Positions 25,675 to 44,467 of a stretch of 47,690 bases of DNA are shown here, one piece after another (the stretch's first letter is position 1; every line of letters begins with the position of its first letter). This stretch comes from a virus: positions 1-47,690 of the IMG/VR virus record IMGVR_UViG_3300037010_000943. One strand, 5' to 3'. The position numbers and the translations under genes were made by a program. The notes below the pieces were generated by a model. The model searched no databases. It saw nothing but the letters and a program-made list of their open reading frames with translations, and was not told the origin of the DNA.

Positions 25675-26943
25675 ATGATAAAAGAAGAAATAAAATTCCT
25701 AACCAAAGGATCACACGCAGTAGTCACTGTGACTTGTGACTTTGGGGTATCCAATAAATGTAGGGGCCAATACAGTTACCCCTATAAGGATGCCCTTAGA
25801 TTTAGAAATAGCAATAATGGCAAGGATATATGCTTATTTTGCTCAAGAACCCTTAAATTCTCTGGAAGGGGAAACCCCAGTATGAAATACCCGCTCGATG
25901 ACAACCTTTTTTCTGTTATAGATACACATGAAAAAGCCTATGTCCTAGGATTAATTGCCGCAGATGGTTCTATAGGGAGGGGGGTGGTTAACATCTCCTT
26001 AAAAGAATCAGATGAGTCCAGTTTTAACCTTCTTACCTCTATTGCCAAGTGGTCTCAATGTGGTCCCGTTACCTCAAAGAAAAACAAGGATATTTGTGGA
26101 ATAACATTTAACTCAACTCAGATTGTCACAGATGTTGCCTCCCACCTTGGATTGAGTTCCTATGGTAAAAAGTGTTTTGATATTAAGTTTCCCTTGCTTC
26201 CCCCGGAACTGACTCTCTCCTTCATAGCAGGATTCTTTGATGGAGATGGTTGTGTGACTCAAGATAGTGAATTTTACAATTATCCTCGATGCAACTTTGC
26301 CTCTGGATCGTTGGAGTTTCTTGAAAGTATTCAATCTTTTCTAGGAGTTTCCTCGTCTATAGCTAAAGGGGCCTGTAATCACTTAGAGTATGCAGGGTCC
26401 AACGCTCTTGATATTTTAGGTAGAATTTACAGCATTACCCCATTCAAGTTAGAAAGAAAATACCAACTTTTTAAAAAACTAGCTGCATGGCTTCCTTCTT
26501 TTGGTCCCGGCACAACCTTAGCCACCTTTAAATGTGTGAGAACAAGCTCTGAAGCTAAAATTCCCAGTAAAACCAACATCTCTGACTCTGGGTATGATGT
26601 TACAATCATTTCTAAGCTAAAAACAATTGGAGATGTAGAGTTTTTTGACACGGGTATCAAAATTCAACCAGCCCCAGGTTGGTGGTTGGCTCTCGTTCCT
26701 AGAAGTTCAATCTCAAAAACAGGTTACATGCTAGCTAATAATCTTGGGGTAATTGACCAGAGCTACACAGGAAACATAATTGTGGCGCTTAGAAAAGTAG
26801 ATAAACTTGCCCCCGATTTGGAATTACCACTAAAGATCGCACAAATAGTTCCAATGCCTGCATCCCATTTTGAGATTGAGGAAGTAGAATCGCTTGAAGT
26901 CACAAATAGAGGAATCGGGGGATTTGGAAGTACCGGAAGCTGA
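25675..26943 (+). CDS. dut: LAGLIDADG homing endonuclease fused to dUTPase
   Basis: A 422-residue two-part protein. The N-terminal 80 residues contain four cysteines in a zinc-finger-like pattern (CDFGVSNKC ... CLFC). Two LAGLIDADG motifs follow: YVLGLIAADGSIG (about residue 89) and FIAGFFDGDGCV (about 183), both with the catalytic acidic residue. From about residue 285 a complete trimeric-type dUTPase begins: motif 1 AKIPSKTNISDSGYDV, motif 2 PRSSIS, motif 3 LGVIDQSYTGNI, and C-terminal motif 5 RGIGGFGSTGS. dUTPase converts dUTP to dUMP and keeps uracil out of DNA. There is no Cys/Ser first residue and no His-Asn splice end before the dUTPase, so this is not an ordinary intein. It lies 42 bases after nrdJ. 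Confidence 0.9.
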   Translation: MIKEEIKFLTKGSHAVVTVTCDFGVSNKCRGQYSYPYKDALRFRNSNNGKDICLFCSRTLKFSGRGNPSMKYPLDDNLFSVIDTHEKAYVLGLIAADGSIGRGVVNISLKESDESSFNLLTSIAKWSQCGPVTSKKNKDICGITFNSTQIVTDVASHLGLSSYGKKCFDIKFPLLPPELTLSFIAGFFDGDGCVTQDSEFYNYPRCNFASGSLEFLESIQSFLGVSSSIAKGACNHLEYAGSNALDILGRIYSITPFKLERKYQLFKKLAAWLPSFGPGTTLATFKCVRTSSEAKIPSKTNISDSGYDVTIISKLKTIGDVEFFDTGIKIQPAPGWWLALVPRSSISKTGYMLANNLGVIDQSYTGNIIVALRKVDKLAPDLELPLKIAQIVPMPASHFEIEEVESLEVTNRGIGGFGSTGS

Positions 26944-27468: not shown

Positions 27469-28011
27469 ATGTCCAAATTCTCGGAACTCAATCGAACCTA
27501 CAATCTCTCCGAAGACCAACCTGACCTTCTGGCTACAGGGGTTAATATGCGTGATTTGATGGTAATGTTTGACTTGGAGGCTACTGTCGTTGACAGTTGG
27601 CACTCCGCATGTCCCCTACCTAAGAAAATAGGCTACATGAACTCATTCATCAATTCTTTCCTAGCTACAGACCGTGAAATGCATAATGCTCCCAAGTTCG
27701 GAGTCTTCAGTTTCGCCATTGATCATCCACACGAGCGTCAAATTGGCCGTAACCTTGCTTCTCATACAGGACGGAACATCGAAGTTGATGATAAGTGGGT
27801 TCCCTGCTGGTCCGATTTTGAGGCTCTCGTTAGGCTGAGGTCCGATCTCCAGAAGTGGGAAATCGTCAATCTCTACGGTAAGGACAAGATGTTTGATCTG
27901 TGGACTCGCCAGTTCCCTGAGACCGATTTTATCTTGTTTGATGACTGCCTACCCGACAAGGACTCGACCACTATTCGTGATGGTCAGATGGTCCGTAAAA
28001 TTCGTGTTTGA
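27469..28011 (+). CDS. HAD-like hydrolase (tentative), degenerate motif I
   Basis: A 180-residue cytosolic protein with GGAGG eight bases before its ATG. Residues about 31 to 40 read LMVMFDLEATVVDSW, which looks like HAD motif I (DxDxT/V) except that the second Asp is Glu. Near the C-terminus DFILFDDCLPDKDSTTI matches the shape of HAD motif III/IV (a paired Asp after a hydrophobic strand). HAD enzymes of phages include 5'/3' nucleic-acid phosphatases and nucleotidases. Just downstream lie three ligase-type genes, so an end-healing role is attractive but unproven. A 3'-5' exonuclease-like reading of the first motif was considered and fits less well. Confidence 0.4.
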   Translation: MSKFSELNRTYNLSEDQPDLLATGVNMRDLMVMFDLEATVVDSWHSACPLPKKIGYMNSFINSFLATDREMHNAPKFGVFSFAIDHPHERQIGRNLASHTGRNIEVDDKWVPCWSDFEALVRLRSDLQKWEIVNLYGKDKMFDLWTRQFPETDFILFDDCLPDKDSTTIRDGQMVRKIRV

Positions 28012-28014
28012 AAT

Positions 28015-28046
28015 TTGGTAGGATTCTGGGGCCACCCTGGTATAAT
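28015..28046 (+). promoter_or_regulatory. Promoter with GGTATAAT before the unknown 228-residue gene
   Basis: TATAAT at 28041-28046 with the extended -10 form TGGTATAAT; TTGGTA begins 26 bases upstream at 28015. The ATG at 28066 follows a GGAGG site within about 20 bases. Confidence 0.6.
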
Positions 28047-28065
28047 GACTATGGAGGCAATACAC

Positions 28066-28752
28066 ATGGCTAAAATGGATATGTTCGCTACCGCTGAGAA
28101 AGTCGCCGCTACCCCCACTAAGAAGGCTGGTAAGAAGGAGAAGGAGACTGTCGTTCTCGGCTCCGACCTCGACAATCTTTCGGCGGCTACGGCTGTCATC
28201 AAGTCTCTTGAAGGTGTCTCGGCTATTTACGAGGCTAAGGTCAAGGCCAACATGCTCAAGCTCTTCGCCAACATGGGGACCGAAGCTCACAAGCGTCCTG
28301 CCAACTTCGAAGGCACGGGTAGTGTGTCTACTGCTTCGTGCGAACTCAAGAAACGAGCTAGCACTTCGGTTCTGACCGCTGAAGAGGCCGCGATGCTGAC
28401 TGAAAAGGGCATCAAACTGGATGAAAAGGAAGTTCGCCCTGAGGCTTATCTGTTCAATCAGGCTATTCTGCTTGATCCCGTGCTTCGCAAGAAGGTCAGT
28501 GACGCTCTGAGCAAGATTGACTTCGGCGGCATCGCTCCCATTCTCCACCAGGAGCGCGAAGTGAAGAAGATCATCCACGAGGATTCGTTGGATCAGGTCT
28601 TCATGCTGACCGAGAACGAGGAAGATGCCGAATCTCTCCTCCCTACTGTTGGTGTTCTCTCCATCAAGCCCAAGTTTGATGGGACTCTGAGTGAGGCTGT
28701 CTCGATGCTTGAGGCCGCTGGTGTTACCCTTAAGGCTAAGGAGGCCAAATAA
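28066..28752 (+). CDS. Unknown cytosolic protein
   Basis: A 228-residue protein with no recognised family. The ATG at 28066 has GGAGG eight bases upstream and lies downstream of the promoter, so upstream TTG/ATG codons are rejected as starts. After a Lys-rich N-terminus (KKAGKKEKETVVLG) it is mostly helical and acidic (LDNLSAATAVIKSLEGV, ILHQEREVKKIIHEDSLDQ). No nucleotide-binding or metal motif was seen. Base composition here is GC-richer in the third codon position than the neighbouring genes (many -GC and -CC endings), which may reflect high expression. Its stop overlaps the start of a 24-codon ORF (TAATG). Confidence 0.75.
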   Translation: MAKMDMFATAEKVAATPTKKAGKKEKETVVLGSDLDNLSAATAVIKSLEGVSAIYEAKVKANMLKLFANMGTEAHKRPANFEGTGSVSTASCELKKRASTSVLTAEEAAMLTEKGIKLDEKEVRPEAYLFNQAILLDPVLRKKVSDALSKIDFGGIAPILHQEREVKKIIHEDSLDQVFMLTENEEDAESLLPTVGVLSIKPKFDGTLSEAVSMLEAAGVTLKAKEAK

Positions 28753-29292: not shown

Positions 29293-29328
29293 AAAGTAAA
29301 AGCCCTATTGAGGGCTTTTACTTTTATA
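29293..29328 (+). terminator. Intrinsic terminator
   Basis: A perfect 14-base stem (AAAGTAAAAGCCCT and complement) with loop ATTG, ending in a T-rich tail CTTTTAT. Confidence 0.9.
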
Positions 29329-29591: not shown

Positions 29592-30182
29592 ATGTTCCTT
29601 TACCCACCTCGACCTGAGAGAGCTGTCATTCCCGGCCACCTTCCTGTGTTTGAGGGTATGGGTTTCTCTGCCGAATACAAAAAGAACGGGACTTGCACAA
29701 CTATTGAAACCGATGATGGTCTCAAGTCCTGGACACGGCACAATGAACCCCATAAAGCCTGGAATATAAACGAGTTTCCGGCAAAAGACATGCTTTTGAA
29801 GATTGAGGACTCCTATTTTGTGGCTGAACTACTCCACTCTAAGGGTGTCGGAGTTAAGGACACCCTGTATGTGTTCGACATCCTAAAGTATCAGGGTAAG
29901 ATGCTAACTGGGATGACCCTCATGGAGCGAAGAGCCATCCTTCACACCCTTTGGCCTATCCAGAAGGTTCACTACTCCCATTTCGAAGTCCACAAAAATC
30001 TTTGGGTAGCTCGGTGGTTTGAGTGTGGTTTTGTTGAGATTTTTAACGGTATTACTAAAATAGAGGACGAAGGTATCGTTCTCAAAGACCCCAAGGCCAC
30101 TCTCCTTCCATGCTACAAAGAAGGAACCAATGCAGGATGGCAAGTAAAATGCCGCAAACCAACCAAGAATTACTCTTTTTGA
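29592..30182 (+). CDS. ATP-dependent ligase-family nucleotidyltransferase (compact)
   Basis: A 196-residue adenylation core. Motif I is EYKKNG with the presumed AMP-accepting Lys30. Motif III/IIIa-like strands are YFVAELLH and LYVFDILKY, motif IV is EDEGIVLK and motif V is WQVKCRK. No OB-fold or second domain follows, so it is shorter than typical DNA ligases (usually over 250 residues). It may be a minimal DNA or RNA ligase, or a capping-like nucleotidyltransferase. It is the first of three KxxG proteins within 2.4 kb, preceded by its own promoter; nick sealing in DNA or RNA is the likely role. Confidence 0.75.
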   Translation: MFLYPPRPERAVIPGHLPVFEGMGFSAEYKKNGTCTTIETDDGLKSWTRHNEPHKAWNINEFPAKDMLLKIEDSYFVAELLHSKGVGVKDTLYVFDILKYQGKMLTGMTLMERRAILHTLWPIQKVHYSHFEVHKNLWVARWFECGFVEIFNGITKIEDEGIVLKDPKATLLPCYKEGTNAGWQVKCRKPTKNYSF

Positions 30183-30211
30183 GGCCCATGTGCCAGACGA
30201 ACGAATAACTC

Positions 30212-30228
30212 AGTATCATGTAAAAATT
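30212..30228 (+). promoter_or_regulatory. AGTATCATGTAAAAATT motif, putative promoter
   Basis: Fifteen of 17 bases match the motif at 47571-47587, and its first part matches 32028-32041. It lies 38 bases before the ATG of the RNA ligase gene, with TATCAT in the place of a -10. Confidence 0.45.
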
Positions 30229-30265
30229 CTAATGAGAATCCGAGAAGAATTTAGAGGAGAGTAAC

Positions 30266-31300
30266 ATGGAAAGAAAACTAGCCAGTATTCAAAGAGTTCT
30301 AGCCCTAGACCCAATTGAGGGTGCGGATCGTATCGAGGTCGCTACTGTTCAGGGTTGGAAGATCGTGTGTCAGAAGGGCCTTTATGCCGTTGGTGACTTG
30401 GTGGTGTACTTTGAAATTGATAGCTTTATCCCAACCAAAGTAGCTCCATTCCTAACCAAGCCAGAACACTCTCCAAAGGTGTTCAACGAGGTTGAAGGTG
30501 AGCGTTTAAAGACCGTCAAGCTTCGTGGACAGGTCTCTCAGGGTCTCCTACTACCACTTTGGGAGGAGACCATCAAGGACAAGGTTCAAGGTCTTGAAGA
30601 GGGCACAGACCTCACTGAGCTACTGGGTATCCAGAAGTGGGAAGCCCCGCTACCCGCTCAGCTTGCTGGACAGGCAAAAGGTATGTTCCCAGCCTTCATT
30701 CGTAAGACTGACCAGGAAAGAATTCAGAACCTTCTACGCTATTTTGACACTTACAAGGATGAGCTATTTGAAGAATCCATCAAACTAGATGGCTCCTCGA
30801 TGACGGTCTACAAGAATGATGGGGACTTCGGTGTCTGTAGCCGCAACCTCAACCTAAAAGAGACCGAAGGCAACTCGTTCTGGGACATGGCAAACAAGCT
30901 GAATCTCCGTGATAAGCTGATGGCTATCGGTAAGAACATTGCCATCCAGGGTGAGCTTATTGGCGAGGGTATCCAAGGAAATCATGAAGGTATCAAGGGT
31001 CAGGACTTCTATGTCTTCGACATTTGGGACATCGACAACCGAAGGTACTGCACCCCTGACGAGCGCAGAGACATCCTAGCTCAAATTCCAGGCATCAAGG
31101 AAGTTCCTGTAACCGAGAAGGCCATTGCCATCTTCCAAGTCTATGACACAGTTGACAAGCTCCTAGCTCATGCCGATGGACCAAGCCTCAAGGCCGCTAT
31201 TCGTGAGGGCCTAGTATACAAAAGCTGTAATCTCATTAATGGTGAGACCGTCAGCTTCAAAGCCATTAGCAATAAATTCCTACTTAAAAAGGGAGATTAA
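30266..31300 (+). CDS. RNA ligase, Deinococcus DraRnl (Rnl5) type
   Basis: A 344-residue ATP-dependent RNA ligase. The first 120 residues are an OB-fold-like domain (LASIQRVLALDPIEGADRIE, LVVYFEIDSFIPTKVAPFL, GQVSQGLLLPL). Adenylation motifs follow: KLDGSS with Lys173, SRN, FYVFDIWDI, EGLVYK and FKAISNKF. An N-terminal OB module before the catalytic Lys near residue 170 is the layout of DraRnl, which seals breaks with an RNA 3'-OH. An excellent GAGGAGAG ribosome site precedes the ATG. The stop overlaps the start of the next ligase (TAATG), so both are translated together. Confidence 0.9.
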   Translation: MERKLASIQRVLALDPIEGADRIEVATVQGWKIVCQKGLYAVGDLVVYFEIDSFIPTKVAPFLTKPEHSPKVFNEVEGERLKTVKLRGQVSQGLLLPLWEETIKDKVQGLEEGTDLTELLGIQKWEAPLPAQLAGQAKGMFPAFIRKTDQERIQNLLRYFDTYKDELFEESIKLDGSSMTVYKNDGDFGVCSRNLNLKETEGNSFWDMANKLNLRDKLMAIGKNIAIQGELIGEGIQGNHEGIKGQDFYVFDIWDIDNRRYCTPDERRDILAQIPGIKEVPVTEKAIAIFQVYDTVDKLLAHADGPSLKAAIREGLVYKSCNLINGETVSFKAISNKFLLKKGD

Positions 31301-31899
31301 TGAAGCAGTATCCTTCTATTCCACGAGAGCTACAGAATATTCCAGTCTACGCTTTCGACAAATTGGATGGGTCCAACATTCGTACAGAATGGCACCCTAA
31401 GAAGGGCCTGTGGAAATTTGGATCTCGCACACAGTTGATTGATGAAACCTCTCCTCTAGGAGAAGCAATCGGCCTCATCAATCAACACAGCGAAGCTATT
31501 CACAAGGAACTACGAGATATGGGAGCCGAGGGAGCCACGCTCTTTTTCGAATTTTTTGGTGCTAGCTCTTTTGCAGGAACCCATTATGATGAAACTCATC
31601 GAGTATCCTTAATTGATGTCTCTATTTACAAAAAAGGTTTTATGAATCCTGGGGATTTCAATAAATCATTCAAAGAGATTCCTAAAGCTGGAATGCTTTA
31701 CTACGGCAACTGCAATAGAGAATTTGTTGAGGCAGTAAAAACAGGTAATCTTGAGGGGATGACATTCGAAGGTGTTGTTTGCAAAGCCTCCAGAGCAAAA
31801 GCCAGCCACTCGCCTATCATGTTCAAAGTAAAGAATCAAGCTTGGATTGAAAAACTGCGCTCCACTGTTCCTGCCGATCAATTTGAGGTACTACTATGA
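31300..31899 (+). CDS. RNA ligase, Rnl2-like adenylation core
   Basis: A 199-residue ligase. Motif I is KLDGSN with Lys21, motif III region FFEFFG, a strand HRVSLIDVS, motif IV FEGVVCK and motif V MFKVKNQ followed by WIEKL. The catalytic Lys lies close to the N-terminus, as in T4 Rnl2-type ligases, and no C-terminal domain is present. It starts inside the stop of the DraRnl-like gene and overlaps a 47-residue Cys-containing ORF at its end. It probably seals nicks in RNA or RNA-containing duplexes. Two different RNA ligases side by side suggest different substrates. Confidence 0.85.
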   Translation: MKQYPSIPRELQNIPVYAFDKLDGSNIRTEWHPKKGLWKFGSRTQLIDETSPLGEAIGLINQHSEAIHKELRDMGAEGATLFFEFFGASSFAGTHYDETHRVSLIDVSIYKKGFMNPGDFNKSFKEIPKAGMLYYGNCNREFVEAVKTGNLEGMTFEGVVCKASRAKASHSPIMFKVKNQAWIEKLRSTVPADQFEVLL

Positions 31900-32039
31900 T
31901 TCAGGTTGTTAATTCAGTCCCAAACCCATTAGCGGTCAAGCATGTAATCTGCCTAAATTGTGGAGTCACCCTATCATGTTTACAGGCAAATTCGCTGTCT
32001 AAAGTGCGACAAGACGACATAACTCTGAGTATTAGGTAA
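31896..32039 (+). CDS. 47-residue protein with half a zinc ribbon
   Basis: ATG overlaps the ligase stop (ATGA). It contains CLNCGVTLSC, one CxxC plus a third Cys, near residues 19 to 28. Too short to be a complete zinc ribbon unless it dimerises. It ends 12 bases before the AAA+ gene, so it lies in the same transcript. Function unknown. Confidence 0.5.
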   Translation: MIQVVNSVPNPLAVKHVICLNCGVTLSCLQANSLSKVRQDDITLSIR

Positions 32040-32051: not shown

Positions 32052-33131
32052 ATGACTAAACCAGTTGAAGGTCAAAATCCAGGTTTAATTTCTATGTTCA
32101 GTAAGCCTTGCGGTGAGCCTGATGTGACCTCGTGTGACTCAGAAGACAGCTTTAAGCCCAAGCTTCGTGGTGGAATGGATCGAGAACGCCTTGAGATGCT
32201 CAATAAGGTCGCAAGAGTCCTTATCAGTGACGGCAATGATCGCTTGGCCGCTCAATTCACTGGTCTATTCGCTCCAGCCACCGCTAACTCCGGTTGGGCC
32301 GACAAAGATGGAACCGTTTTTTCTGTTCAGGAATTTCGCCCTAATCTCCGTCCTGGGGTTTACTCCACTGGCATTACCAACAACGGTCAGCCCTATCTGG
32401 TCAATGAAACTCCAGTTACGGATGACCTCTTAACCCTCCCCGATTCCAGAACTGTCTCCCTAATTGCAGAATTTGAACGATTCTGGTCTCTAGAAGAGAC
32501 CTTCAAGGTCAACGGGTTCCTACACAAGCGAGGGTTCTTCCTCGTTGGACCTCCAGGTTCCGGTAAGACCTCTATCATTCAACTACTCTCTAAGAGCCTA
32601 GTTGACAACTTTGATGGAATCGTGCTTTACCTGGAAAACCCCAACATCGGTTACTCCTGTCTCAGAATGATCCGCTCTATTGAACCCGATAGAAAAATCA
32701 TCTGCATTCTTGAGGATTTCGACTCCCTCATCAAGAACTACGAAGAAGCAGATTATCTAAGCCTATTCGATGGCGAAAAGTCCATTGACCATGTGGTTTA
32801 TGTGGCTACCACCAACTATCCTGAGGACATCGACAAGCGTTTCCTAGACCGTCCCAGCCGCTTTGACCAGATTGTGACCGTGGGCCTACCCTCCCTAGAG
32901 GATCGACTCTTCTACCTGACCGCAAAGGCTCCCGGTATCGACAAGGACACCCTTCTAGAGTGGGCCAAGGCCACTAAGGACTTCGGAATCGCCCATCTCA
33001 AGGAAATCATCGTAAGCGTAACATGCTTTAACTACTCATTTGAGGAGACTTTGAAGCGTCTAAAAGACCAGAAAAAGCTCATTTCATCAGAAAAACTGCA
33101 AGGAAAACAATCCGTAGGCTTCGACAGGTAA
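32052..33131 (+). CDS. AAA+ ATPase
   Basis: A 359-residue AAA+ protein. Walker A is GPPGSGKTS (residues 166 to 174). Walker B is ICILEDFDSLI, with Glu-Asp instead of the common Asp-Glu. Sensor 1 is ATTNYPEDID, and the arginine finger region is RPSRFDQ. This architecture is closest to classic AAA (FtsH/BCS1-like) modules that remodel or unfold partners. The N-terminal 150 residues are unassigned and would set the substrate. A ribosome site GTGAGGAAA precedes the ATG. Phage AAA+ proteins of this size often act in replication or virion assembly; the neighbouring ligases and HNH gene do not settle which. Confidence 0.8.
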   Translation: MTKPVEGQNPGLISMFSKPCGEPDVTSCDSEDSFKPKLRGGMDRERLEMLNKVARVLISDGNDRLAAQFTGLFAPATANSGWADKDGTVFSVQEFRPNLRPGVYSTGITNNGQPYLVNETPVTDDLLTLPDSRTVSLIAEFERFWSLEETFKVNGFLHKRGFFLVGPPGSGKTSIIQLLSKSLVDNFDGIVLYLENPNIGYSCLRMIRSIEPDRKIICILEDFDSLIKNYEEADYLSLFDGEKSIDHVVYVATTNYPEDIDKRFLDRPSRFDQIVTVGLPSLEDRLFYLTAKAPGIDKDTLLEWAKATKDFGIAHLKEIIVSVTCFNYSFEETLKRLKDQKKLISSEKLQGKQSVGFDR

Positions 33132-41202: not shown

Positions 41203-41841
41203 GTGGAGTCGTATGAGGATTTCTATTCATTACTAGAGAAGTTGAAGGCAAAAGGCCAGAAATTCGATGGAAAAACCCTGAAAAAGTTGGCATACCATCA
41301 ACTTGATCTAGCCGCCATTGGAAATGCTGGCCCATGCAAGTGTTCAAGCGGGTTAGTTCGCAAAGAGAAGATGCTTCGCCGCCATGCCTTTGTTGCAAAG
41401 CCAACGATTGATGACGATAGGGACTATTTGGAGCAGACTGGTATGCTTGATGGGGTTTTGGATGACCGTAACCACAATACCGGCTTTCCGAGATGGGAAG
41501 AACTCTCTAATATTCTAAAGCTTTGGTTCAAACTCTGTTGTATTGAGATTCACCTAGATTCTCCCAACATTCGATTGACCGAAGCTATTGCTCTATTTAA
41601 GAAATGTGCCGCAGAAGGTAGCATCCCTCATCAGTTAGCCCTGATGCATATTTCGGAATTCCAGTCCATCCTTCAAATGACCAAGAGATTGAATGATGAA
41701 ACCATCAGGAACGCCTGTAACCAAGCAGCATACACCCTGAAAGAATTCATGACCCCTGATGATGTTGAAATAGCCGACAACAAGACCCTAGACAATTACT
41801 CATGCAGTTCCTACTGTTTCCGAGCCATTAATGAACATTGA
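41203..41841 (+). CDS. Unknown protein upstream of the helicase
   Basis: A 212-residue protein starting at GTG 41203, eight bases after AGGAGG; the earlier GTG at 41182 lies before that ribosome site. A CKCSSG motif near residue 46 and several charged helices (YEDFYSLLEKLKAKG, LALMHISEFQSILQMTKRL) are visible. No known family. Its last 11 bases overlap the helicase start, so it is translated with it and may be a replication accessory factor. Confidence 0.65.
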   Translation: MESYEDFYSLLEKLKAKGQKFDGKTLKKLAYHQLDLAAIGNAGPCKCSSGLVRKEKMLRRHAFVAKPTIDDDRDYLEQTGMLDGVLDDRNHNTGFPRWEELSNILKLWFKLCCIEIHLDSPNIRLTEAIALFKKCAAEGSIPHQLALMHISEFQSILQMTKRLNDETIRNACNQAAYTLKEFMTPDDVEIADNKTLDNYSCSSYCFRAINEH

Positions 41842-44467
41842 TAGCCTCAAAGCAGGCTTCCCATTCCCAGAAATTAGACCATCCCAAGAGAAGGCACTAG
41901 AGAAATTAGCCTCCAATCTTGAGAAGGGTAAGCGATTCTCCATTTTTGAACTCCCGACAGGCATAGGTAAGTGTTTGGACCCTCTAACCCCAGTAATGTT
42001 GTTTTCTGGTGAAGTAGTCCCAGCCAACAGTGTCCGTATTGGTGATCTACTAATGGGGCCTGACTCGCTACCAAGGACGGTTATAGCTATCAGTCAGGGG
42101 CTAGATGAGATGTATGAAGTGACTCCAGTTAAAGGGATGTCTTACAGGGTCAACAAGGAGCATATACTGTCCCTAAAAACTACTCAGAGTGGGGCAACTA
42201 GAAAAATTTCGGAGTTTACAAAAGGCTCAGTTATAAATATTAAAGTTACAGATTATCTTAGTAAATCCAACTACTTTAAATGGTGTGCTAAGGGATACAG
42301 AGTCGGAGTTGATTTTCAAAAACAAGCTAGCTCACCAGTAGACCCTTATTATGTGGGACTTTGGCTAGGGGACGGAACCACTAGTACCCCGACTGAGATT
42401 ACCTCGATGGACTCAGAAATTGTTGATTACCTAACTTCGTTAGCATCCAAGTTTGGGTTAGTCGTGACAACTCGGAGTAACGGCTCAAAAGCTGTAGCTT
42501 ATAATCTAACCACCGGAATAACAGGGGGGAAGCCGGGTAGGAATCCCTTGTTAAATGCCATGAAATGCCTTGGCCTACATAGTAACTCAAAATTTATTCC
42601 AGAATTACTAAAATTTGGAAGCAGAGACACTAGATTAGAGTTGCTAGCCGGATACCTAGACGCTGATGGTTCTAAAGTGTCGGGAGGCTACGAAAGTATT
42701 TCGTCATTGCCTAACCTGTCTAACGCTATAGCATTTGTGGCTCGATCCTTAGGTTTAGCCGCTTATGTAACACCCTGTAAGAAATCTGACCAACACGGGA
42801 CTGTGGGGGACTACTACAGGGTTTCAATAAGCGGGGACTGTAGTGTTATTCCCGTTAAGTTACCAAGGAAAAGACAGGAGCCTAGACTTCAGAAAAAAGA
42901 TGTATTAGTGACTGGGATTTCCGTAAAAGCAACTGGAGTCGGGCCATTTTACGGCTTTACTCTGGACGGGGACGGGTTGTTTTTATTGGGGGATTTTACC
43001 GTCACCCATAACTCTGGCTTAGCCCTGAGTGTGGTTCAAGCCGCAGCTAAGGAACCCCAAAGTAAACCCTACACCTCTGGAGGGACGATCCTCACATCTC
43101 AAAAAATCCTTCAACAGCAATACCAAAATGAATTTGAACACCTAAATCTAATGGACCTAAGAGGTGCCTCTAACTACACTTGCACCGAACACGAAGACAC
43201 CACCTGTGATATCGGTCAACAACTTAACCGAATCTCCGGTAATGTTTGCTCTGTCTGCCCCTACAGGCAGGCTAAATCGGCATTTATGTCCCAACCTAAC
43301 GGGGTTACCAATTTTAGCTACTTCTTAACCGATTCAGCTTACAAAAAAGAGGAGGCAAAAAAGCTTCCTAAGAAGAAAGTTCTAGTTATTGACGAAGCTC
43401 ACAATACTGAATCATCCTTAGTCGGCCACTCTGAGATCAACATTTCTTCTATTAGAATGGGTGAACTAAATGTTCAACCCCCCAAACGAGTTCTTCAATT
43501 CACTGATATTAAGAGAGCTAAAGATTGGATTAATACCATTTTAAACCCCGCGATCTCCGCTTTGATCGGGCAGCTTGAGATGGAAATGCTGGAGAAAGGT
43601 GGGTCCAGGAGAGAGCTGTTGCCAATTGCAAAACGACTTACTTCTTACGAGCAATTTGCGGAAAATCTGGGTAAATTTATGGAATCTGAGTCCCTATTGT
43701 GGTTTATTAACCAGACTGAGACCGGGATCAACATCAAACCCCTCAGAGGGGATGTATTTGCTGAGGAGCTTTTGTTTAGTCGAGCCGAACACATTGTTAT
43801 GATGTCAGCAACCATCCTAGATCCTAAGACCTTCACCCGTAATCTAGGAATCAACCCCAAAGAGTGTGGTTATATGAGTCTACCCTCAGAATTCCCGGTG
43901 TCAAACCGTCAAGTTATCTTTGCCCCAGCGGGTAGCATGTCCTTCAAGAACTATGACACTACACTACCCAAACTCCTAAAGCGAATTGACAGAGTGCTTA
44001 CCAAGCATAGTGAGGAGAAAGGTATCATCCACTGTAATTCGTTCAAACTTTCACAGCACATCATGGATCATTTTGCTGGAACCCCACATGGCGCTAGGTT
44101 GCTCACACATGACTCTAAAAACCGTGGAATGGTTGTTGACTACCATATGACTAGCTCCAAACCAACGGTCCTTCTAAGCCCCTCTATGACCGAAGGGCTG
44201 GATCTCAGGGACGACCTGTCTAGATTCCAGGTTATAGCTAAGTGTCCTTGGGGAAGTTTGGCAGATCCGTATATTAGAACCAGAATGGAGATGGACGAAA
44301 CTTGGTATACTTGGCAAGCCTGCCTCCACTTGGTTCAGAGTATTGGTCGTTCAGTTAGATCAAAGGATGATTATGCAACAAGTTATATTCTGGATTCAGA
44401 CACTATTAGACTATTTAATTCTGGTATGCTACCAGAATGGTGGTTAGAGGCACTGGAATTCAGATGA
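41831..44467 (+). CDS. dinG: DinG/XPD-family helicase interrupted by an intein
   Basis: The 878-codon ORF encodes a 531-residue superfamily 2 helicase plus a 347-residue intein (residues 48 to 394). The extein shows Walker A ELPTGIGK joined to S after splicing, four iron-sulphur cysteines (C451, C459, C473, C476), Walker B IDEAHNTES (about residue 521) and motif VI QSIGRSVR near the C-terminus. This fits the DinG/XPD group, which unwinds 5'-to-3' on DNA or R-loops with ATP. The intein splits the catalytic GK|S, so the enzyme is inactive until spliced. Its start overlaps the upstream unknown gene and its stop overlaps a 33-residue ORF. Confidence 0.9.
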   Translation: MNIDSLKAGFPFPEIRPSQEKALEKLASNLEKGKRFSIFELPTGIGKCLDPLTPVMLFSGEVVPANSVRIGDLLMGPDSLPRTVIAISQGLDEMYEVTPVKGMSYRVNKEHILSLKTTQSGATRKISEFTKGSVINIKVTDYLSKSNYFKWCAKGYRVGVDFQKQASSPVDPYYVGLWLGDGTTSTPTEITSMDSEIVDYLTSLASKFGLVVTTRSNGSKAVAYNLTTGITGGKPGRNPLLNAMKCLGLHSNSKFIPELLKFGSRDTRLELLAGYLDADGSKVSGGYESISSLPNLSNAIAFVARSLGLAAYVTPCKKSDQHGTVGDYYRVSISGDCSVIPVKLPRKRQEPRLQKKDVLVTGISVKATGVGPFYGFTLDGDGLFLLGDFTVTHNSGLALSVVQAAAKEPQSKPYTSGGTILTSQKILQQQYQNEFEHLNLMDLRGASNYTCTEHEDTTCDIGQQLNRISGNVCSVCPYRQAKSAFMSQPNGVTNFSYFLTDSAYKKEEAKKLPKKKVLVIDEAHNTESSLVGHSEINISSIRMGELNVQPPKRVLQFTDIKRAKDWINTILNPAISALIGQLEMEMLEKGGSRRELLPIAKRLTSYEQFAENLGKFMESESLLWFINQTETGINIKPLRGDVFAEELLFSRAEHIVMMSATILDPKTFTRNLGINPKECGYMSLPSEFPVSNRQVIFAPAGSMSFKNYDTTLPKLLKRIDRVLTKHSEEKGIIHCNSFKLSQHIMDHFAGTPHGARLLTHDSKNRGMVVDYHMTSSKPTVLLSPSMTEGLDLRDDLSRFQVIAKCPWGSLADPYIRTRMEMDETWYTWQACLHLVQSIGRSVRSKDDYATSYILDSDTIRLFNSGMLPEWWLEALEFR
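41972..43012 (+). mobile_element. Endonuclease-bearing intein in the Walker A of the helicase
   Basis: A 347-residue insertion with Cys1 at its first codon and His-Asn at its end, followed by Ser+1: a complete set of splicing residues. LAGLIDADG-type motifs YYVGLWLGDGTTS and LLAGYLDADGSKV indicate an intact homing endonuclease. The first block (CLDPLTPVMLFSGEVVPANS) and last block (FYGFTLDGDGLFLLGDFTV) are canonical intein ends. P-loops are favoured insertion sites because they are highly conserved. Confidence 0.95.

Follow-up and report, generated by a model that had tools for sequence, protein, structure and literature searches.

Huge phages often carry several RNA ligases, and the question that we address here is which of these ligases repairs what. 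That a jumbo phage can encode multiple RNA ligases is already published: Iyer et al. (2021, PMC7824862) give XacN1 with three Rnl2 paralogues and, as in the phage studied here, several ATP-dependent RNA ligases together with tRNAs and RlaP for RNA repair; in the passages concerned, ligases lying side by side are not reported and a compact DNA-ligase-like family is not described. The DNA analyzed here (the window) is a virus record of 47,690 bases that matches part of a 221-kb IMG/VR contig (G001) at 99.985–100% identity, and in it three ligase genes, designated A, B, and C, lie consecutively on one strand at 29592–31899. An initial annotation had interpreted these genes as one dedicated RNA-repair system. 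We consider it probable that they are three independently acquired covalent nucleotidyltransferases (NTases), of which B and C would serve RNA repair, with tRNA the likeliest substrate of C, and A would stand apart in association with a partner gene of its own.

The three genes are real, with exactly these coordinates and intact catalytic motifs. Chance is excluded by the near-invariance of the catalytic residues in the family alignments (44 A-family and 42 C-family sequences) and by confidently predicted NTase folds, and the ligase genes have relatives in phages whose genomes are as large as 735 kb. The initial annotation had also proposed that three different ligase types are present, and this was upheld by the Pfam and NCBIfam family assignments, folds, BLASTP, and profile comparisons. 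Recent duplication of a single ligase gene into three, for which the shared NTase fold and the adjacency are the only points in favor, is ruled out as a practically negligible possibility: BLASTP returned no significant match between A and C or between B and C, profile–profile comparisons gave probabilities of 0.3% for A–C and 30% for C–B, and each of the three genes has a separate set of relatives.

The sequence of gene B (30266–31300, + strand, 344 aa) identifies it as a full-length RNA ligase of the Rnl5/DraRnl–NgrRnl type, a new member of the known Rnl5 family. The protein scored 238 bits with the NCBIfam model TIGR02306 (RNA_lig_DRB0094; cut-off 151 bits) over residues 5–341 of 344, and aligned over its whole length with the Naegleria ligase NgrRnl (E 8.7e-84). 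It combines an N-terminal OB domain (PF21189, residues 5–98) with an NTase domain (PF09414, residues 170–334), an architecture that it shares with both Deinococcus DraRnl (DRB0094) and NgrRnl; its catalytic residues K173, E230, E314, and K332 align with those of the family, and no essential difference from the family was seen. Homologues of B occur in more than 300 phage records, and a role in RNA repair is plausible for this gene.

Gene C (31300–31899, + strand, 199 aa) encodes a minimal NTase of the RNA-ligase type that lacks a C-terminal domain, with the motif residues K21-L-D-G-S-N, R43, E84, D106, E157, and K176/K178. It matched Pfam RNA_ligase (PF09414) with 30.9 bits against a cut-off of 27 and PHROG 548 'RNA ligase' at 2e-17, and PF09414 was likewise matched by 11 of 11 members of set A2, with which the gene C family was tested. 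Across the 42 aligned C-family sequences, K21, D23, G24, E84, D106, E157, G158, K162, K176, and K178 are invariant or nearly so, and R43 is present in 38. The AlphaFold model is an NTase domain (pLDDT 92.6) whose top PDB folds are T4 Rnl1, NgrRnl, T4 Rnl2, and TbREL1. C thus has the NTase fold and motif set of the PF09414 domains of T4 Rnl2 and Rnl1 and of trypanosome REL1; unlike these enzymes, it stops soon after motif V, and its large-phage family usually adjoins tRNA genes. The label of an Rnl2-like core, given to C initially, therefore holds for the look of the NTase domain and fails for Rnl2 proper, as the Rnl2 equivalog model TIGR02307 did not match and the C-terminal domain is missing.

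The neighborhoods of C homologues are rich in tRNA genes. In 16.6-kb intervals around C from 20 contigs, tRNA genes were present in 17 (mean 6.7), compared with 7 of 40 control intervals of equal length drawn from these contigs at a distance from C (mean 0.65; Fisher p = 6e-7). The same held among non-redundant loci, where tRNA genes were found in 35 of 44 C intervals and 16 of 58 A intervals, and 408 of the 410 tRNA genes near C lay on its strand, the 80 C loci having been picked as the top matches in a pattern scan rather than sampled at random. Genes for EF-Ts, peptidyl-tRNA hydrolase (PTH2), GroES, and NAD salvage also lie near C in several loci. Published huge and Lak phages have tRNA genes near C homologues in several records, XacN1 having none within 5 kb. 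In the phage of the window itself, C is outside the tRNA array: the 37 tRNA genes of G001 occupy 53,655–64,191, about 30 kb away from the ligases, with an NT5C-type HAD gene at the edge of the array and a gene for the repair nucleotidyltransferase RlaP at the end of the same contig. This 221-kb contig, which may be incomplete, yielded no AAA_33 polynucleotide kinase. An RNA-repair role, especially in tRNA repair, is well supported for C by the linkage of its family to tRNA genes, and C is most likely a minimal RNA ligase whose family, one of large phages, is associated with these genes, with tRNA sealing as its likeliest function. Searches that covered open-license papers gave no published description of this linkage to tRNA arrays, nor one of the A family and its partner.

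Several details of the C loci were recorded alongside these counts. Among L058–L137, the C-family loci, tRNA genes lie alongside C in many huge phages, often with genes for EF-Ts, PTH2, GroES, NAMPT, and NadM–Nudix. In about ten C loci (L076:9604-11507 and related loci), C is followed downstream by a HAD-like ORF and by one that resembles Rnl1 by eye, neither with a Pfam match, and together with C these may form an RNA-repair cluster. In phage contigs, tmRNA genes were seen near C and A genes (L059:14735-15083 and L145:14579-14931).

Gene A (29592–30182, + strand, 196 aa) is a compact stand-alone NTase of a KxNG family, and is nearest to DNA ligases both by sequence and by predicted fold. Its motifs are I, K30-x-N-G (K30-K-N32-G33); Ia, R49-H50; III, E79; IIIa, D96; IV, E160-G161 with K165; and V, K186-x-R188. 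In the alignment of 44 A-family sequences, K30, R49, H50, E79, D96, E160, G161, K165, K186, and R188 are invariant or nearly so; profile searches for the family used two narrow alignments. The match to Pfam DNA_ligase_A_M (PF01068) scored 33.7 bits (cut-off 26.2; E 3.7e-8) and covers only the second half of the protein, and the AlphaFold model (pLDDT 95.5) is an NTase domain for which the top PDB folds are the NTase domains of DNA ligase III, DNA ligase IV, and LigD. The fold and the order of the motifs are those of the ATP-dependent DNA ligases (the Lig3, Lig4, and LigD NTase domains, PF01068) and of the minimal ligases of phages and Chlorella virus (PMC8455567). Unlike ATP-dependent DNA ligases, A ends at residue 196, just past motif V, without an OB domain or motif VI; in motif I, Asn replaces the Asp of the KxDG signature in 43 of 44 aligned sequences; motif V reads KxR in nearly all members; an N-terminal PPRP that is specific to the A family stands at residues 5–8; and a separate partner gene is linked to A. 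Its relatives are similarly short (196–278 aa), and none was found in cellular genomes in one scan of 84,980 species, a scan limited by its patterns. The best reading of these features is that A is a DNA-ligase-like adenylyltransferase or ligase that is separate from, and lies outside, a putative RNA-repair unit of B and C. In a further A-carrying phage, L142:12332-13414 encodes a fusion of a WGR domain with an NTase domain of the DNA-ligase type, and similar WGR–NTase frames of 374 aa are present in G037 and G038, again in phages that carry A.

The partner gene of A (28033–28752, + strand) encodes an uncharacterized protein whose start is uncertain, the ORF opening at 28015. A profile built from the window's ORF at 28015–28752 detected family members at 61 of 105 A loci, at 0 of 79 C loci, and in 0 of 40 control intervals; among non-redundant loci the counts were 38 of 66 for A and 0 of 54 for C. 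The partner mostly lies upstream of A on the same strand and is often adjacent, and adjacency is not constant, with 13 of 39 partner matches within 300 bp of A. In published huge phages, the two genes adjoin in the complete genome LR756501 and are both present but apart in LR745206 and LR756502, and a search of 50,697 phage records, at the sensitivity applied, gave no further relatives of the partner. Searches of Pfam, PHROG, and the PDB returned no family match for the partner. The linkage may in part reflect shared phage ancestry. Even so, these sequence neighborhoods make it more likely that the functional companion of A is the 28033–28752 protein rather than B or C. We tentatively entertain, as a fairly unlikely extension, that A and this protein are the two subunits of a hitherto undescribed ligase of huge phages. 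The catalytic subunit would then be the KxNG protein, which is NTase only, and its substrate-binding domain would be provided in trans, as it is in trypanosome RNA-editing ligases. As part of the same tentative reading, the substrate would be one handled by neither the DNA ligase nor the RNA ligases of the phage, such as nicks in RNA–DNA hybrids or a particular cleaved RNA.

Against this background, it seems rather improbable that A, B, and C make up a single operon dedicated to repair, in which each damaged substrate has its own enzyme and an upstream HAD-like protein heals the ends, as was first proposed. The layout is certainly compact: all three genes are on the same strand, ribosome-binding-like GGAGG/GGAGA sequences lie directly 5' of A and of B, the stop codon of B overlaps the start of C (TAATG), and A is separated from B by no more than 83 bp, which makes co-transcription of the three genes possible. 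A 14-bp terminator-like inverted repeat (29293–29324) between the partner and A-B-C may separate two transcription units, in a scan in which such sites were overall no commoner than in shuffled sequence. The differing ligase types, the 37 tRNA genes and the RlaP gene that accompany the ligases in this phage, and the specialized roles argued for multiple phage RNA ligases by Iyer et al. (2021, PMC7824862) would suit such an operon as well. What weighs against it is that the arrangement is not kept elsewhere. In a sister phage (73–85% identity in B), B, the AAA ATPase gene, an HNH gene, and the tail genes follow in the same order, yet A and C are missing from the syntenic site; other genes stand in the place of A, and a GIY-YIG/NUMOD3 homing-endonuclease gene (L011:6022-6744, − strand) sits where C is in the window. 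The AAA ATPase gene (32052–33131, + strand), which the sister phage keeps together with B at 69% identity, and B flank the site that C occupies, which is possibly an insertion hot spot; between C and the ATPase gene, a 47-aa ORF with one CxxC (31896–32039, + strand) overlaps the stop of C. Within 8 kb on each side of 79 other C-family genes, an A-family gene was seen in two cases, and a B-family gene in two loci that are related to each other. Among 105 other A-family loci, a set in which some places are counted twice, a C-family gene was seen at one, and a few have B-like genes. None of these 184 other A- or C-family loci had all three genes within 8 kb, the nearest case (L190) being a C gene that adjoins A with only a weak B-profile match in a neighboring short frame. 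Among 27 C-carrying contigs longer than 200 kb, only 3 contain an A gene and most contain two to four PF09414 RNA-ligase genes, so several ligases per phage are ordinary and the tight A-B-C cluster is not. The linkage of A to a different gene family counts against a single operon too, as does the gene at 27469–28011 (+ strand), initially called HAD-like and credited with end healing. Its DLEAT/LFDD pattern is only suggestive, with Glu in place of the usual second Asp; searches of Pfam, PHROGs, NCBIfam, and the PDB gave no HAD match, none of 50,697 phage records yielded a relative, and its reading as a HAD/Pnkp-type end-healing gene is not supported. The adjacency of the three ligases is thus probably a product of modular accretion or a chance meeting rather than one machine, the coupling of B and C possibly being functional, and finding ligase genes physically clustered in a phage does not in itself argue for a joint pathway. 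Of the RNA and tRNA repair proposed initially for the whole trio, the parts concerning C and, as a plausible role, B are retained, and A is left outside the unit.

Two further explanations concern what A does. One, which we regard as distinctly unlikely, holds that A is the DNA ligase of the phage cut down to its catalytic core, with action on RNA left to B and C alone. It draws on the matches of A to DNA ligase models and DNA ligase folds and on the fact that no other DNA ligase was seen in the 221-kb contig, which may be incomplete; nevertheless, 13 or 14 of 19 A-carrying contigs, a set that includes the parent contig of the window and G006, also have a full-length ATP or NAD DNA ligase, as do most A-carrying contigs longer than 200 kb and also G002 and G003. 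Since most A-carrying phages have such an enzyme, A is unlikely to be a replicative ligase. DNA ligases use the OB domain to close on the nick, and the lack of this domain in A, like its KxNG motif I and its family's KxR motif V, speaks against the same explanation. The other holds that A, and possibly C, is not a ligase at all and instead caps or AMPylates ends or proteins as an adenylyl- or nucleotidyltransferase. This is very doubtful: A and C do consist of the NTase domain only, without the second domain that is usual in end-joining enzymes, and some A-family members have weak matches to mRNA-capping enzymes, but the motif set fits ligases better, and the NTase domain of Rnl2, when isolated, retains the ability to seal pre-adenylylated ends.

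Returning to three independently acquired NTases, genomic linkage is not activity, and from the genes, motifs, predicted folds, and genomic associations described above we infer enzymatic activities, substrates, an anti-nuclease purpose, and a role for the partner as follows. The active-site lysine of B would take AMP from ATP and transfer it onto a 5'-phosphate RNA end, after which attack by the 3'-OH would seal the nick. C, translationally coupled to B, would re-seal tRNAs of the phage or the host that have been cut by host nucleases, and B and C, the 37 tRNA genes, and RlaP as an end-restoring nucleotidyltransferase would plausibly serve RNA repair together. For A, which has no OB domain, the 28033–28752 protein might supply substrate binding in trans. 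Family-level gene neighborhoods in this way turn the question of which ligase repairs what into testable assignments, namely tRNA sealing for the C family with its tRNA genes, and a new substrate or a split ligase for the A family with its uncharacterized partner.

A comparison with known defense-system proteins (PADLOC) gave zero matches for A, B, C, and the partner of A. Two other ORFs of the window stood out by eye only: a helicase-like ORF at 41831–44467, in which the Walker A region looks to be interrupted by an intein (GIGKCLDP...THNSG), and an ORF at 25675–26943, in which a dUTPase-like C-terminal part is fused to an N-terminal part resembling a homing endonuclease.
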